Part shown: one piece after another, positions 45,997 to 52,265 of the stretch
How positions within the stretch are numbered: the stretch's first letter is position 1
Layout of the letters: the number at the start of each line of letters is the position of its first letter
DNA from: a bacterium
GTDB lineage: Bacteria; Actinomycetota; Acidimicrobiia; Spongiisociales; ZC4RG35
DNA length: 55,760 nt
Reading direction: 5' to 3'
Assembly (NCBI GenBank): GCA_024641285.1
Contig: JAHEDH010000005.1
Location: forward strand, 1 to 55,760
Translations under genes and position numbers: made by a program
The notes under the pieces: model-generated
The model's database searches: none
Seen by the model: the letters and a program-made list of their open reading frames with translations, nothing else
Told to the model about the DNA's origin: nothing

Positions 45997-47013
45997 ATGA
46001 AGCGGATCGTCACGACACTCGCCCTCTGGCTGTTGGTGATCTCGCCCGCCACTGCGTCGACACCAACAGACCGCGCCAGCTGTCCGCCTGATCTGCCCCG
46101 AGCCGGCTTCTCCGACGTCTATCCCCTGTCGGTCCACGCCTTCGACATCGACTGCATCACCTGGCGTTCCGTCACCGATCCGGCGACGCCCACGTTTCGC
46201 CCGACAGAGAATCTGGCGAGATGGGAGATGGCGACATGGCTCGATGCCATGCTGAGATGGGTGCAGGATCGGTATGCAAGTACCCCGCTCACCTTCACCG
46301 ACACGGCATCCCTGGATGCATCCGAGAACATCGAGGCACTTCGCCGGCTCGACGTGACGCGCGGGATCGGTGGTGACGCCTTCGACCCATTCGGCGCCGT
46401 CCCGCGCTGGCAAATGGCGTTGTTTCTGACACGCGGCTACACCGCAGCCGGCAACCAGCTCCCTCCGGCATCGGATCGCGGGTTTGCCGACATCTCGGGT
46501 GAGACACAGGAGGCGCAGGACGCGATAAACCAGCTGGCGACCCTCGGCGTAACCAATGGCACCGGCCCGACGACGTTCTCACCGGACGATCCCGTCACCC
46601 GTGAGCAGATGGCCTCGTTCGTAGCGCGTCTGCTCGAACAGATCTGGGTCCTGCAGCCCCTGACCGACACGTGCGTCACGACCGGACTGCCGATCCGCTG
46701 CTCTGGATCCATGGTGGCTGTGTCTTCACCCGGCACACTTCGGCTGCGGATCCCGATGTTCATGGCCGATCACGTCGGTGACCTGGACACTGCCGAGGCG
46801 CTCATCTCCCACCCTGCGACACGCATCGACATATACGTCGACGGAACGTCGGTCCCGGTGGCCTCGTCGATGCGGCGCAACAGCGGTGCGATCTATCGCT
46901 ATTGGGAGGCTCTGCTTCCCGCCGGTCTGCGAGGCCCGATCACGGTCGAAGCCCGTACCTTCATCCGCGGCGTGCTGACGACGGTGCGCCAGGTGGATGT
47001 CGACTTGCGTTAG
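45997..47013 (+). CDS. S-layer homology (SLH) domain protein, secreted
   Basis: Signal peptide; AGFSDVYPLSVHAFDIDCITWRSVTDP.TPTFRPTENLARWEMATWL, INQLATLGVTNGTGPTTFSPDDPVTREQMASFVARLLE. Confidence 0.9.
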   Translation: MKRIVTTLALWLLVISPATASTPTDRASCPPDLPRAGFSDVYPLSVHAFDIDCITWRSVTDPATPTFRPTENLARWEMATWLDAMLRWVQDRYASTPLTFTDTASLDASENIEALRRLDVTRGIGGDAFDPFGAVPRWQMALFLTRGYTAAGNQLPPASDRGFADISGETQEAQDAINQLATLGVTNGTGPTTFSPDDPVTREQMASFVARLLEQIWVLQPLTDTCVTTGLPIRCSGSMVAVSSPGTLRLRIPMFMADHVGDLDTAEALISHPATRIDIYVDGTSVPVASSMRRNSGAIYRYWEALLPAGLRGPITVEARTFIRGVLTTVRQVDVDLR

Positions 47014-48158
47014 CGAAGATGCTCAGGCTCGGTCACCGACCACAGCAGCACGATCAGCGCGAGCGCGTCGACGGCGACCGCCGCGAGGGCGTTCGCTCCG
47101 AATCCGATCGACGTGAACAGGGCAGGGCCGATCACTCCGGCGAGGACGCGACCCAGGCTGATCGCGACGACCAGCCACGCCAGATACCGACCTCGACCAC
47201 CAGGCACGAGCTCGGACGCCAACGGGAACGTCGAGATGATGAGAAACTCGAACCCTGCAAAGGCGACGAGCGCTCCCCCCACCCCCAGAACAACCGAGGA
47301 GCCGGACAGTCCCATCGCCGCGTACCCGACGGCATTGATGACCAGCCCGATGCCGACCGCCCGCTTCTTCCCGAGCCGATCGGTGAACAGGCCGGTCGAG
47401 AGAGCGCCGGTGAGCTCGGCGAGGCCGATCAGCGACGCCAGGCCGGCGATGCCGACGAGCGCAATGGCAAAGGAGTCTTCCAGCCAGGCGCCGAGGACGA
47501 TCACGGTCAGCTCGTCGGCCCCGGAGAACAGCACGGCTACCGCCAGCATCCCGATCGCCGAGCGGTCCAATGTCAGGCGGCCTCGCTCGGCCATCTCGGC
47601 GTGGTCCTCGTCGAGCAGCATCACGCCACCGATGAAGGCCACCCCTGCGATCAACGCAATGACTCCATACGCGGTCTGCCAGCCGCTCCTCGAAATCAGC
47701 CAACCGACGACAGGGGCGCCGATGAGGAAGCCGCCGGCCCACGTGGTCTCGAACGCCGCCAGCCACCTTGCTCGCGATTCGTAGGGGACGCGGTCGGAGA
47801 GATACGCCTGTCCGGAGACGTCGAACACGGCCTTCCCGAGGCCCATGAGCACGAATCCGGTGAGCACACCGCCATAGATGCCCACGAGCGCAGTGATCCC
47901 CGAGCCGAGGCTGAAGATCGCCAGCCCGACGAGCACCAACGCCCGCCGGTCGTACCTGCGTCCGGCCGTGACGATCGCCGGCGTCGCCATCGCCGCCGCC
48001 GAACGGGCTGCGACCAGCACCCCGGCGGATTCGAGTGGAATACCGAGACCGCGTGCGATCACCGGCAGGAACGGCGACACCAGACGGTGACCGGTGTTGA
48101 TCACCAGCCGTGCGGCAGTCAGTAGACCGAGCGCGTTGATGAGTGGACGTGAAGACAT
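47010..48158 (-). CDS. MFS transporter
   Basis: About 12 hydrophobic segments, LSDRVPYESRARWLAAFETTWAGGFLIGAPVVGWL, LFTDRLGKKRAVGIGLVIN. Confidence 0.92.
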   Translation of the reverse strand: MSSRPLINALGLLTAARLVINTGHRLVSPFLPVIARGLGIPLESAGVLVAARSAAAMATPAIVTAGRRYDRRALVLVGLAIFSLGSGITALVGIYGGVLTGFVLMGLGKAVFDVSGQAYLSDRVPYESRARWLAAFETTWAGGFLIGAPVVGWLISRSGWQTAYGVIALIAGVAFIGGVMLLDEDHAEMAERGRLTLDRSAIGMLAVAVLFSGADELTVIVLGAWLEDSFAIALVGIAGLASLIGLAELTGALSTGLFTDRLGKKRAVGIGLVINAVGYAAMGLSGSSVVLGVGGALVAFAGFEFLIISTFPLASELVPGGRGRYLAWLVVAISLGRVLAGVIGPALFTSIGFGANALAAVAVDALALIVLLWSVTEPEHLR

Positions 48159-48241: not shown

Positions 48242-48345
48242 TCAGTCGAGCCAGTCCAAGAGCAGATCGGCGAGCCGGTCGGGTGCGGTCAGCGGGAGCC
48301 AGTGATCGGCGCCCTCGATTGGCCCGTGCTCGGTAATCGTGAGCT
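48242..48345 (-). pseudogene. Possible C-terminal remnant of an alpha/beta hydrolase
   Basis: LTITEHGPIEGADHWLPLTAPDRLADLLLDWLD* resembles a hydrolase C-terminal His motif; no hydrolase body upstream. Confidence 0.3.
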
Positions 48346-48479
48346 CGACATCGAGGCTTGGAACTCGGCGCGACCGGGTATAGGAGTCGAACACATTCAG
48401 GAAACCGACGGAACTGCTGGTTCGAAGGTCGGCGGTTCGGTCTGATAGCGTCCGGGCACGAGAAACGAGGAGCTCACAG

Positions 48480-49250
48480 GTGGTCAGTCGGGTAGAAGTC
48501 ACAGACGAAGCGTTCAAGAAGCTTCGGACCTACAACATCGTGATGGCGGTCCTGCATGCCGTTCAGGGTGCGGCGGTCGTCGCGCTCGCAACCGATTTTT
48601 CGCTCCCGGTCACGGCGGCCTTCCCCGCCGGGCCTCCGGGGACCGCCGCCCCGGCCCCCGACACGCTGTTCGAGCTGAACGTTGCCTGGGCGGTTGCGGC
48701 GTTCTTGTTCCTGTCGGCCTTCTTCCACCTGCTGGTCGGCGTGATCATGCCCGCCCGCTATCGCGACCAGCTGAGCAGAGGCCAGAACCAGTTCCGTTGG
48801 ATCGAATACGCGATGTCGTCGTCGATCATGATCATCCTCATTGCCATCCTCCCCGGCATCACCAACGTCGCCGCTTTGATCGCCCTCTTCGGCGTCAACG
48901 CCGGCATGATCTTCTTCGGATCGGTGCAGGAGAAGTACGAGGAGCCGGGCGGTTCGCTGTGGCCGTTCTGGATGGGTTGCATCCTGGGGATCGTGCCGTG
49001 GATCGCCATCGGGATCTACCTCGTCTCGCCGGGGAGCGAGGCGCAGCCACCCGGTTTCGTCTACGGGATCTTCTTCTCGCTGTTCGTGTTCTTCAACAGC
49101 TTCGCCTTCACCCAGTGGGCCCAGTACCGCCAGATCGGTCGTTGGAAGCAGTACCTGACCGGGGAGCGGACCTACATCCTGTTGAGCCTGCTGGCGAAGT
49201 CGGCGCTCGCCTGGCAGGTCTTCGGCGGCACGCTCGTCCCCCCGGCCTGA
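48480..49250 (+). CDS. Heliorhodopsin
   Basis: Seven-TM protein; FRWIEYAMSSSIMIILIAILPGI (TM3 Glu counterion region), PPGFVYGIFFSLFVFFNSFAFTQWAQYRQIGRWKQYLTGERTYILLSLLAKSALAWQVFGGTL (TM7 retinal Lys); GTG start. Confidence 0.93.
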   Translation: MVSRVEVTDEAFKKLRTYNIVMAVLHAVQGAAVVALATDFSLPVTAAFPAGPPGTAAPAPDTLFELNVAWAVAAFLFLSAFFHLLVGVIMPARYRDQLSRGQNQFRWIEYAMSSSIMIILIAILPGITNVAALIALFGVNAGMIFFGSVQEKYEEPGGSLWPFWMGCILGIVPWIAIGIYLVSPGSEAQPPGFVYGIFFSLFVFFNSFAFTQWAQYRQIGRWKQYLTGERTYILLSLLAKSALAWQVFGGTLVPPA

Positions 49251-49256
49251 CACATC

Positions 49257-49640
49257 GTGCTCGACGACAAGACCAGGGCCCTCGCCTCTGCCAGGAATTT
49301 CGCGGTGCTGACCACGCTGATGGCGGACGGGACCCCGCAGTCCCACGTCATGTGGGTGGATCACGATGACGAGCACATCCTCATCAACACCGAGATCCAC
49401 CGCCAGAAGTACGCCAACGTGACCCGCGACCCGAGGGCCACTGTGACGATCATCGATGCTGACGACGGCTACTCGTACACGGAGGTGAGGGGAACGGTGG
49501 TGGACACCGTCGGCGGCGAGACCGCACGCAGGCACATCGATGAGTTGTCGCTCCGCTACTTCGGTCGGCCATACTCCAACCGCATCCAGAGCGAACGGGT
49601 CATCCTGCGAATCCGGCCCGACCGCGTCATCGTCCACTGA
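49257..49640 (+). CDS. PPOX class, probably F420/flavin-dependent oxidoreductase
   Basis: NFAVLTTLMADGTPQSHVMWVDHDDEHILINTEIHRQKYANVTRDPRATVTIID; 6 nt after the heliorhodopsin stop; GTG start. Confidence 0.9.
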   Translation: MLDDKTRALASARNFAVLTTLMADGTPQSHVMWVDHDDEHILINTEIHRQKYANVTRDPRATVTIIDADDGYSYTEVRGTVVDTVGGETARRHIDELSLRYFGRPYSNRIQSERVILRIRPDRVIVH

Positions 49641-49649
49641 AACGCAGAC

Positions 49650-49680
49650 GGTCGGACACCCCCGCCCCGGGTGTCCGACC
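49650..49680 (+). terminator. Hairpin after the heliorhodopsin-PPOX pair
   Basis: GGTCGGACACCC-CCGCCCC-GGGTGTCCGACC, 12-bp perfect stem. Confidence 0.65.
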
Positions 49681-49801
49681 GATACACGTGATCTCAGCGC
49701 TCGCTCCGGTCCGTTGCCCGCCGGCGCTCGGTGCGTGCCGACAGTATCCATCTCCCGCCGGCCGGGGAAAGGCAGATTGCTCAGACTCCCGAACGGGCTA
49801 G

Positions 49802-50875: not shown

Positions 50876-51295
50876 CTACGCCCCGACCGAGCCGTAGGCG
50901 TGCACCGGATACATCTTCAGGATGAGCCGACCATCGAAGATCATCGCCTGGTCGTACTCGTCCCAGTCGGGGTGCTCCCCCGAGATGTTCCGGTAGAGGC
51001 GGCGCAGCTGTGCGATCGTCGCGTCATCGGGGTCTCGGGCGACCTCGGTGAGCTCGATGTCGCACTCCATCACGATGTAGGCGCCGAAGTCCGACGTGGT
51101 GACGTGGAGCACCGCCCTGGGGTCGCGGCGGAGGTTGGCCGTCTTGGCACGGCCGTCGGTGATCGAGACCCACACCGCACCGTCGATCGTGGAGTAGACG
51201 ACGTTCGACATCTGCGGGAGCCCGTTCGAGCGCACGGTCGCCAGCACGCCCTGATGGTGCCTTCCGGCGAATTCCATGGCGTTGTGGATCTTCAT
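50876..51295 (-). CDS. PPOX class F420-dependent enzyme
   Basis: HHQGVLATVRSNGLPQMSNVVYSTIDGAVWVSITDGRAKTANLRRDPRAVLHV. Confidence 0.9.
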   Translation of the reverse strand: MKIHNAMEFAGRHHQGVLATVRSNGLPQMSNVVYSTIDGAVWVSITDGRAKTANLRRDPRAVLHVTTSDFGAYIVMECDIELTEVARDPDDATIAQLRRLYRNISGEHPDWDEYDQAMIFDGRLILKMYPVHAYGSVGA

Positions 51296-51308
51296 TCGTT
51301 CTCCTTGC

Positions 51309-52265
51309 TCAGAGGATGTCGGAGGCGCTCGACACGGCCTGGACTGCCTCCCGGCACACGTCGATCGCGAGGTCGGCGAACCGACGCACCATCGGCGACG
51401 GGTTCTTGGGCAGGACGAGGGAGATCGTTCGAGGGGGGATGGGCGGATCGAGCCTCCGCACGAGGATCTTGGGATCGCCGACATCGACTCCGAGGAGGGG
51501 CATCACTGCCAGGCCCATCCCCTCGCGCACCATCGACTGCAAAGCCGCGTTGTCGTTCGTGCGGAAGACGTAGTCGGGACTGACACCGCCATCGACGAGC
51601 CCGGCGCTGATCTTGATCTGGCAGGTGTCGGAGACGGGCTGGCCGATCAACGGCACGTCGGCGAGCTCTCCCATCGTGATGGCGTCGCCGGCCTCGTAGC
51701 CGGCCGGGGCCACGACGACGAACGGGTCCGAGACCACCTCGACCAGTTCGAACGATGCGGGAACCCGCACCGGACTCGCAACGAAGCACACATCGAGCTC
51801 ACCAGACTCGACCCGTTTGACCGTCTCATTGTCGTTGTTGGATTCATGAGGTCTGACATCTGCCTGTGTCTCGCGGAGGAGTCGCCCGACGACGGCGGGA
51901 AGCACCTTGACCGCCACCGACTGGAAGACGCCGACGTCGATCCGACCCGCGCTGCCCGTCTTGTAGCCGGTGAGCTCACGCTCGAAGACCTTGACCTGTT
52001 CGAGCATGCGCTCTGCATGCTTGACGACGAGGCGTCCGGCCGCGGTCAGTGTCACGGGTCGGGGCCCGCCGGGACGGTCGAAGAGCTGCTCTCCGACCAG
52101 ACGTTCGAGCGAGGCGATCTGCTGTGACACGGCGGACTGGGTGAAGCCGAGCGAATCGGCAGCGCTGGCGAAGGTGCCGTATTCGACCACGGCCGTCAGC
52201 GCCCGGAGGTGGCGGATGTCGAGGCCGTCGAGGGATACGTGCCCCCTGCTGGGGGCCGTCACCAT
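51309..52265 (-). CDS. LysR-family transcriptional regulator
   Basis: LDIRHLRALTAVVEYGTFASAADSLGFTQSAVSQQIASLERLVGEQLFDR HTH. Confidence 0.95.
   Translation of the reverse strand: MVTAPSRGHVSLDGLDIRHLRALTAVVEYGTFASAADSLGFTQSAVSQQIASLERLVGEQLFDRPGGPRPVTLTAAGRLVVKHAERMLEQVKVFERELTGYKTGSAGRIDVGVFQSVAVKVLPAVVGRLLRETQADVRPHESNNDNETVKRVESGELDVCFVASPVRVPASFELVEVVSDPFVVVAPAGYEAGDAITMGELADVPLIGQPVSDTCQIKISAGLVDGGVSPDYVFRTNDNAALQSMVREGMGLAVMPLLGVDVGDPKILVRRLDPPIPPRTISLVLPKNPSPMVRRFADLAIDVCREAVQAVSSASDIL

Follow-up and report, generated by a model that had tools for sequence, protein, structure and literature searches.

The locus

The window, by which we mean the whole 55,760-nucleotide stretch of DNA analysed here, comes from a 3.4-Mb draft genome (89.5% complete) whose order is the actinobacterial order containing the genome UBA5794, and UBA5794 is what we take to be the order's GTDB name. 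The assignment comes from G161, a genome of the host's order whose HeR occupies the position of contig DIDS01000033 of UBA5794. It carries a heliorhodopsin (HeR) gene, the only one found in the host genome, which is followed by a predicted PPOX-class oxidoreductase gene and a hairpin and preceded by a transporter gene (Table 1). The HeR start codon is supported by the ribosome-binding-site-like motif and by a genome of the same genus (hereafter the genus-mate), in which an ATG stands at the position matching the GTG. We found no sigma-70-like promoter upstream of HeR, and no Rfam families or tRNAs in the window. A 91-residue open reading frame that overlaps the HeR start (48242-48517, minus strand) was set aside as spurious or a remnant: relatives have no counterpart of it, and it matched no family even at a threshold of E=1. 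By eye, its end, GADHWLPLTAPDRLADLLLDWL, resembles the tail of an alpha/beta hydrolase.

Table 1. Features at the heliorhodopsin locus (positions in the window)
Feature	Position	Strand	Details
RBS-like AGGAG	48468-48472	+	7 nt 5' of the HeR GTG; read from the sequence
Heliorhodopsin (HeR) gene	48480-49250	+	GTG start, TGA stop, 256 aa, open reading frame
PPOX-class predicted F420-dependent oxidoreductase gene (TIGR03618/Rv1155 type)	49257-49640	+	127 aa; 6 bp 3' of HeR
13-bp hairpin	49649-49681	+	fold z=-4.4 in the window
MFS transporter gene	47010-48158	-	Pfam MFS_1; divergent neighbour; genus-mate counterpart 85% identical (tblastn)

A well-formed heliorhodopsin

The gene is a genuine, ordinary heliorhodopsin of a family already known in this lineage; HeRs have been reported from order UBA5794 (PMC12008989). 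Its product matches Pfam PF18761 over the whole profile (326 bits, E=1.3e-97; cut-off 26.7 bits) and NCBIfam NF038020 over its full length (311 bits; cut-off 100 bits), and it matches the 48C12 heliorhodopsin at E=5e-83, with 48C12 and other heliorhodopsins as the nearest solved structures. PF18761 is the sole Pfam family matched, the type-1 microbial rhodopsin profile (PF01036, Bac_rhodopsin) giving no match to the protein. The preliminary description had recognized a heliorhodopsin from three stretches, all of which are present and lie in helices of our structural model: the TM3 signature RWIEYAMSSSIMI within helix 104-123, the TM7 signature LLAKSALAWQVF within helix 225-250, and the PPGFVYGI...SFAFTQWAQY region in TM6 (helix 192-217). 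The identification stands against both refuting outcomes that the description had named, with the HMMs assigning the protein to heliorhodopsin and to no other seven-helix family and the TM7 lysine in place in the alignment.

The active site is intact. The retinal lysine K240, which aligns with K241 of 48C12, forms with S236 (S237) the SxxxK motif of TM7; E109 aligns with the counterion E107; and these residues are invariant in 42 aligned HeRs, as are the pocket histidines H26 (H23) and H83 (H80) and residues W107 (W105), Y110 (Y108), S113 (S111) and N140 (N138). One departure from 48C12 is its W146, which is S148 in the window protein, at a position that varies among relatives.

An AlphaFold model (42 sequences; pLDDT 92.5, pTM 0.89) predicts seven membrane helices and a beta-hairpin between TM1 and TM2, and compares with the 48C12 crystal structure (6su4) at a TM score of about 0.92, with 54% identity over about 250 residues. 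The ten best PDB matches of the model are all heliorhodopsins (TM 0.87-0.95), type-1 rhodopsins being far weaker, and the likeness to 48C12 (PDB 6su3, 6su4, 6uh3; TM 0.90-0.95) takes in family, fold, lysine, counterion, histidine pair and the TM1-TM2 beta-hairpin. Lys and Arg residues number 11 on the N-terminal face and 0 on the opposite face, a pattern that, under the positive-inside rule, fits the predicted inverted topology with the N-terminus in the cytoplasm.

Could this be a light-driven ion transporter, such as a proton transporter like viral V2HeR3? As a retinal protein it belongs to the same superfamily, and PMC9448325 describes a viral HeR that transports protons, so the sequence alone does not make it certain that transport is absent. 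We nevertheless regard transport as most unlikely, given that the closest match is 48C12, at 54% identity, and that ion pumping has never been demonstrated for HeRs according to PMC8612252.

Comparison with the genus-mate (L065) gives a dN/dS of 0.052 for HeR, against 0.11-0.22 for six flanking genes, which indicates that the gene is maintained by purifying selection. The dS of HeR is also the lowest, at 0.65 against 1.06-1.34 for the flanking genes, and may reflect codon constraint or recombination.

The downstream PPOX gene

The PPOX gene, which matches TIGR03618 at 100.9 bits (cut-off 79) and Pfam PNPOx_N, is the sole same-strand neighbour of HeR, and the two genes probably share one transcript. 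The hairpin beyond them is the likely end of that transcript, although it has no T run and went uncalled in the terminator scan. In the genus-mate, sequence comparison places the hairpin core and loop, CACCCCCGCCCCGGGTG, directly 3' of HeR, in a stretch that folds no better than its shuffles. The PPOX gene is missing there although HeR is 96% identical, and it is likewise absent beside every other HeR locus fetched. The nearest PPOX homologues in the host's family (56-66% identity) belong to four genomes, G027, G016, G028 and G030, only one of which (G016) has a HeR, on a contig other than that of its PPOX homologue.

The simplest reading that these sequence comparisons suggest is that the PPOX gene beside HeR is a recent, lineage-specific insertion, possibly accidental, in which case the operon would say little about HeR function. 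The preliminary description had called the operon context informative; we could not sustain this, as the genus-mate lacks the PPOX gene and conservation of the genes flanking HeR stops at the genus. The genus-mate alone has the MFS, LysR, second PPOX and alpha-amylase family genes in the same places. That second TIGR03618 PPOX gene (50876-51484, minus strand) is separated from the first by about 1.2 kb and adjoins a D-serine-dehydratase-like gene and the LysR regulator, a trio conserved in the genus-mate.

HeR might instead be a light-dependent regulator of its operon mate PPOX through direct contact, as published HeRs are reported to be with glutamine synthetase (PMC9529153), photolyase (PMC9769723) and an ABC transporter (PMC11109279). 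The 6-bp gap on one strand with a hairpin after PPOX speaks for this, as do the predicted F420 dependence of the enzyme and, in the sister order Ca. Actinomarinales, a HeR that adjoins an F420-type nuo cluster (PMC7771536). We judge such regulation unlikely in view of the missing PPOX gene beside the 96%-identical HeR and at all other HeR loci fetched, and of family homologues that sit elsewhere, on another contig (G016) or in genomes that have no HeR (G027, G028 and G030). Likewise, we consider it very unlikely that HeR acquired PPOX as a light-controlled operon partner in the window species, thereby coupling F420 redox chemistry to the perception of light; if so, an F420-dependent PPOX would be a partner class absent from those reported in the cited work. 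HeR is common in the same or sister order, as described for UBA5794 (PMC12008989) and Ca. Actinomarinales (PMC7771536). The available parts of these two papers do not name PPOX as a HeR neighbour, and the neighbours that they do name (histidine-kinase-type ATPase, photolyase, nuo clusters) do not lie beside the window HeR.

Retinal supply

The preliminary description had proposed searching the genome for retinal biosynthesis genes, and the search was extended to the order: none of its 138 genomes, 53 of them with HeR, has a match to the Blh-type retinal-forming dioxygenase (PF15461). The PF15461 search found nothing in the control set yet recovered a strong Blh (E=5e-53) in a HeR-bearing Ilumatobacter genome, and therefore works. 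In the host draft, we found neither phytoene synthase nor type-1 rhodopsin (PF01036). A retinal operon near HeR was also discounted, with 0 of 10 scanned surrounding genes being a carotenoid or retinal gene.

Judged by gene content, the usual route to retinal seems closed to this order of uncultured actinobacteria, and its sister order Ca. Actinomarinales also has no retinal synthesis genes (PMC7771536). The host probably either imports its retinal or forms it with some non-Blh enzyme. Uptake would be the likeliest source, a ranking that draws on draft genomes, which can miss genes; retinal uptake from neighbours has been proposed for other bacteria (PMC9296517). The host does have one gene of the carotenoid-oxygenase (RPE65) family (contig C73, 48882-50234; L052), whose product falls below the NCBIfam equivalog cut-offs and has a carotenoid 9,10-dioxygenase as its nearest solved structure, making it a candidate for producing retinal or a different apocarotenoid. 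Elsewhere in the host's family, this gene was found in G015 and G020 only. The six genomes of genus g3 (G002-G007), in which HeR is absent, each carry two adjacent squalene/phytoene-synthase-family genes that resemble the hpnCD genes which sponge-associated UBA5794 members are reported to have.

These negative searches would also suit a protein that is active without retinal, or a gene that is a relic in a retinal-less host: Blh was not found in the order, nor phytoene synthase in the host draft. We think this quite unlikely, because purifying selection on the gene is strong and the retinal lysine and pocket are invariant, and because uptake of the kind proposed elsewhere or the host's own carotenoid-oxygenase-family gene could supply the chromophore.

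Co-occurrence with photolyase

Across the 138 genomes, HeR tracks photolyase (FAD_binding_7): 36 genomes have both, 17 HeR only, 13 photolyase only and 72 neither, when genomes with weak partial matches alone are not scored photolyase-positive. Photolyase is thus present in 36 of 53 genomes with HeR and 13 of 85 without it (Fisher p=4e-10), and the genus-level table keeps the trend (25/6/6/24; p=2.5e-6), with both p values inflated by relatedness because the genomes are not independent. A shared sunlit habitat may account for the co-occurrence. The two genes lie close together in several genomes, with 86 bp between the matched stretches in both G070 and G073, and the host's photolyase gene is on a contig (C169) other than that of HeR. 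The host resembles Trichococcus flocculiformis (PMC9769723) in that its genome encodes a photolyase as well as HeR. In T. flocculiformis the photolyase, a CPD class II enzyme, is an interaction partner of HeR, whereas that of the host matches FAD_binding_7.

When the neighbours of 45 HeR loci were clustered, several families recurred within 5 kb of HeR, at loci whose HeR is 47-71% identical to that of the window: an SDR-DUF2867 protein (12 loci), a B12-binding regulator (6), an amine oxidase (3), photolyase (2) and DUF1365 (2). Genes of the recurrent clusters are missing from the vicinity of HeR at all eight loci with 72-100% identity, among them the window's own, so this subclade may have a different partner. 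SDR-DUF2867 was accordingly dropped as a conserved HeR partner, being found at 12 of 45 loci but at 0 of the 8 closest.

Proposed function

We favor, at a probability of roughly 60%, a functional HeR that acts as a retinal-binding, non-pumping light sensor or helper, turning on photoprotective and light-damage functions. The protein would have seven helices and a cytoplasmic N-terminus and would bind retinal through K240 with E109 as the counterion, the retinal being taken up or produced by a non-Blh enzyme. Isomerization of the retinal by light would alter the protein on its cytoplasmic side, presumably without ion pumping, and HeR could then switch on its target functions, either as the sensor itself or as a helper.

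The gene is one more well-formed heliorhodopsin, and its order-wide setting is the more useful result: across 138 genomes, 53 with HeR, searches did not find the enzyme that usually forms retinal, and HeR tracks photolyase. This makes two questions concrete, namely where these sensors obtain their retinal and whether HeR serves the actinobacterial light-damage response. It also extends known themes, such as the missing retinal synthesis of the sister order (PMC7771536) and the links between HeR and photolyase (PMC9769723, PMC11109279).

Two further observations concern rhodopsin genes in relatives. HeR is seemingly split into two frames at L040 (7830-8709) and L041 (6023-6727), through a frameshift, a pseudogene or sequencing error. 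In genus-mate G012 (contig C226, L051:1501-1758), a C-terminal piece of a type-1 rhodopsin, about 88 aa long, lies inside an otherwise unrelated reading frame, either because the gene has decayed or because contigs were joined there in assembly.
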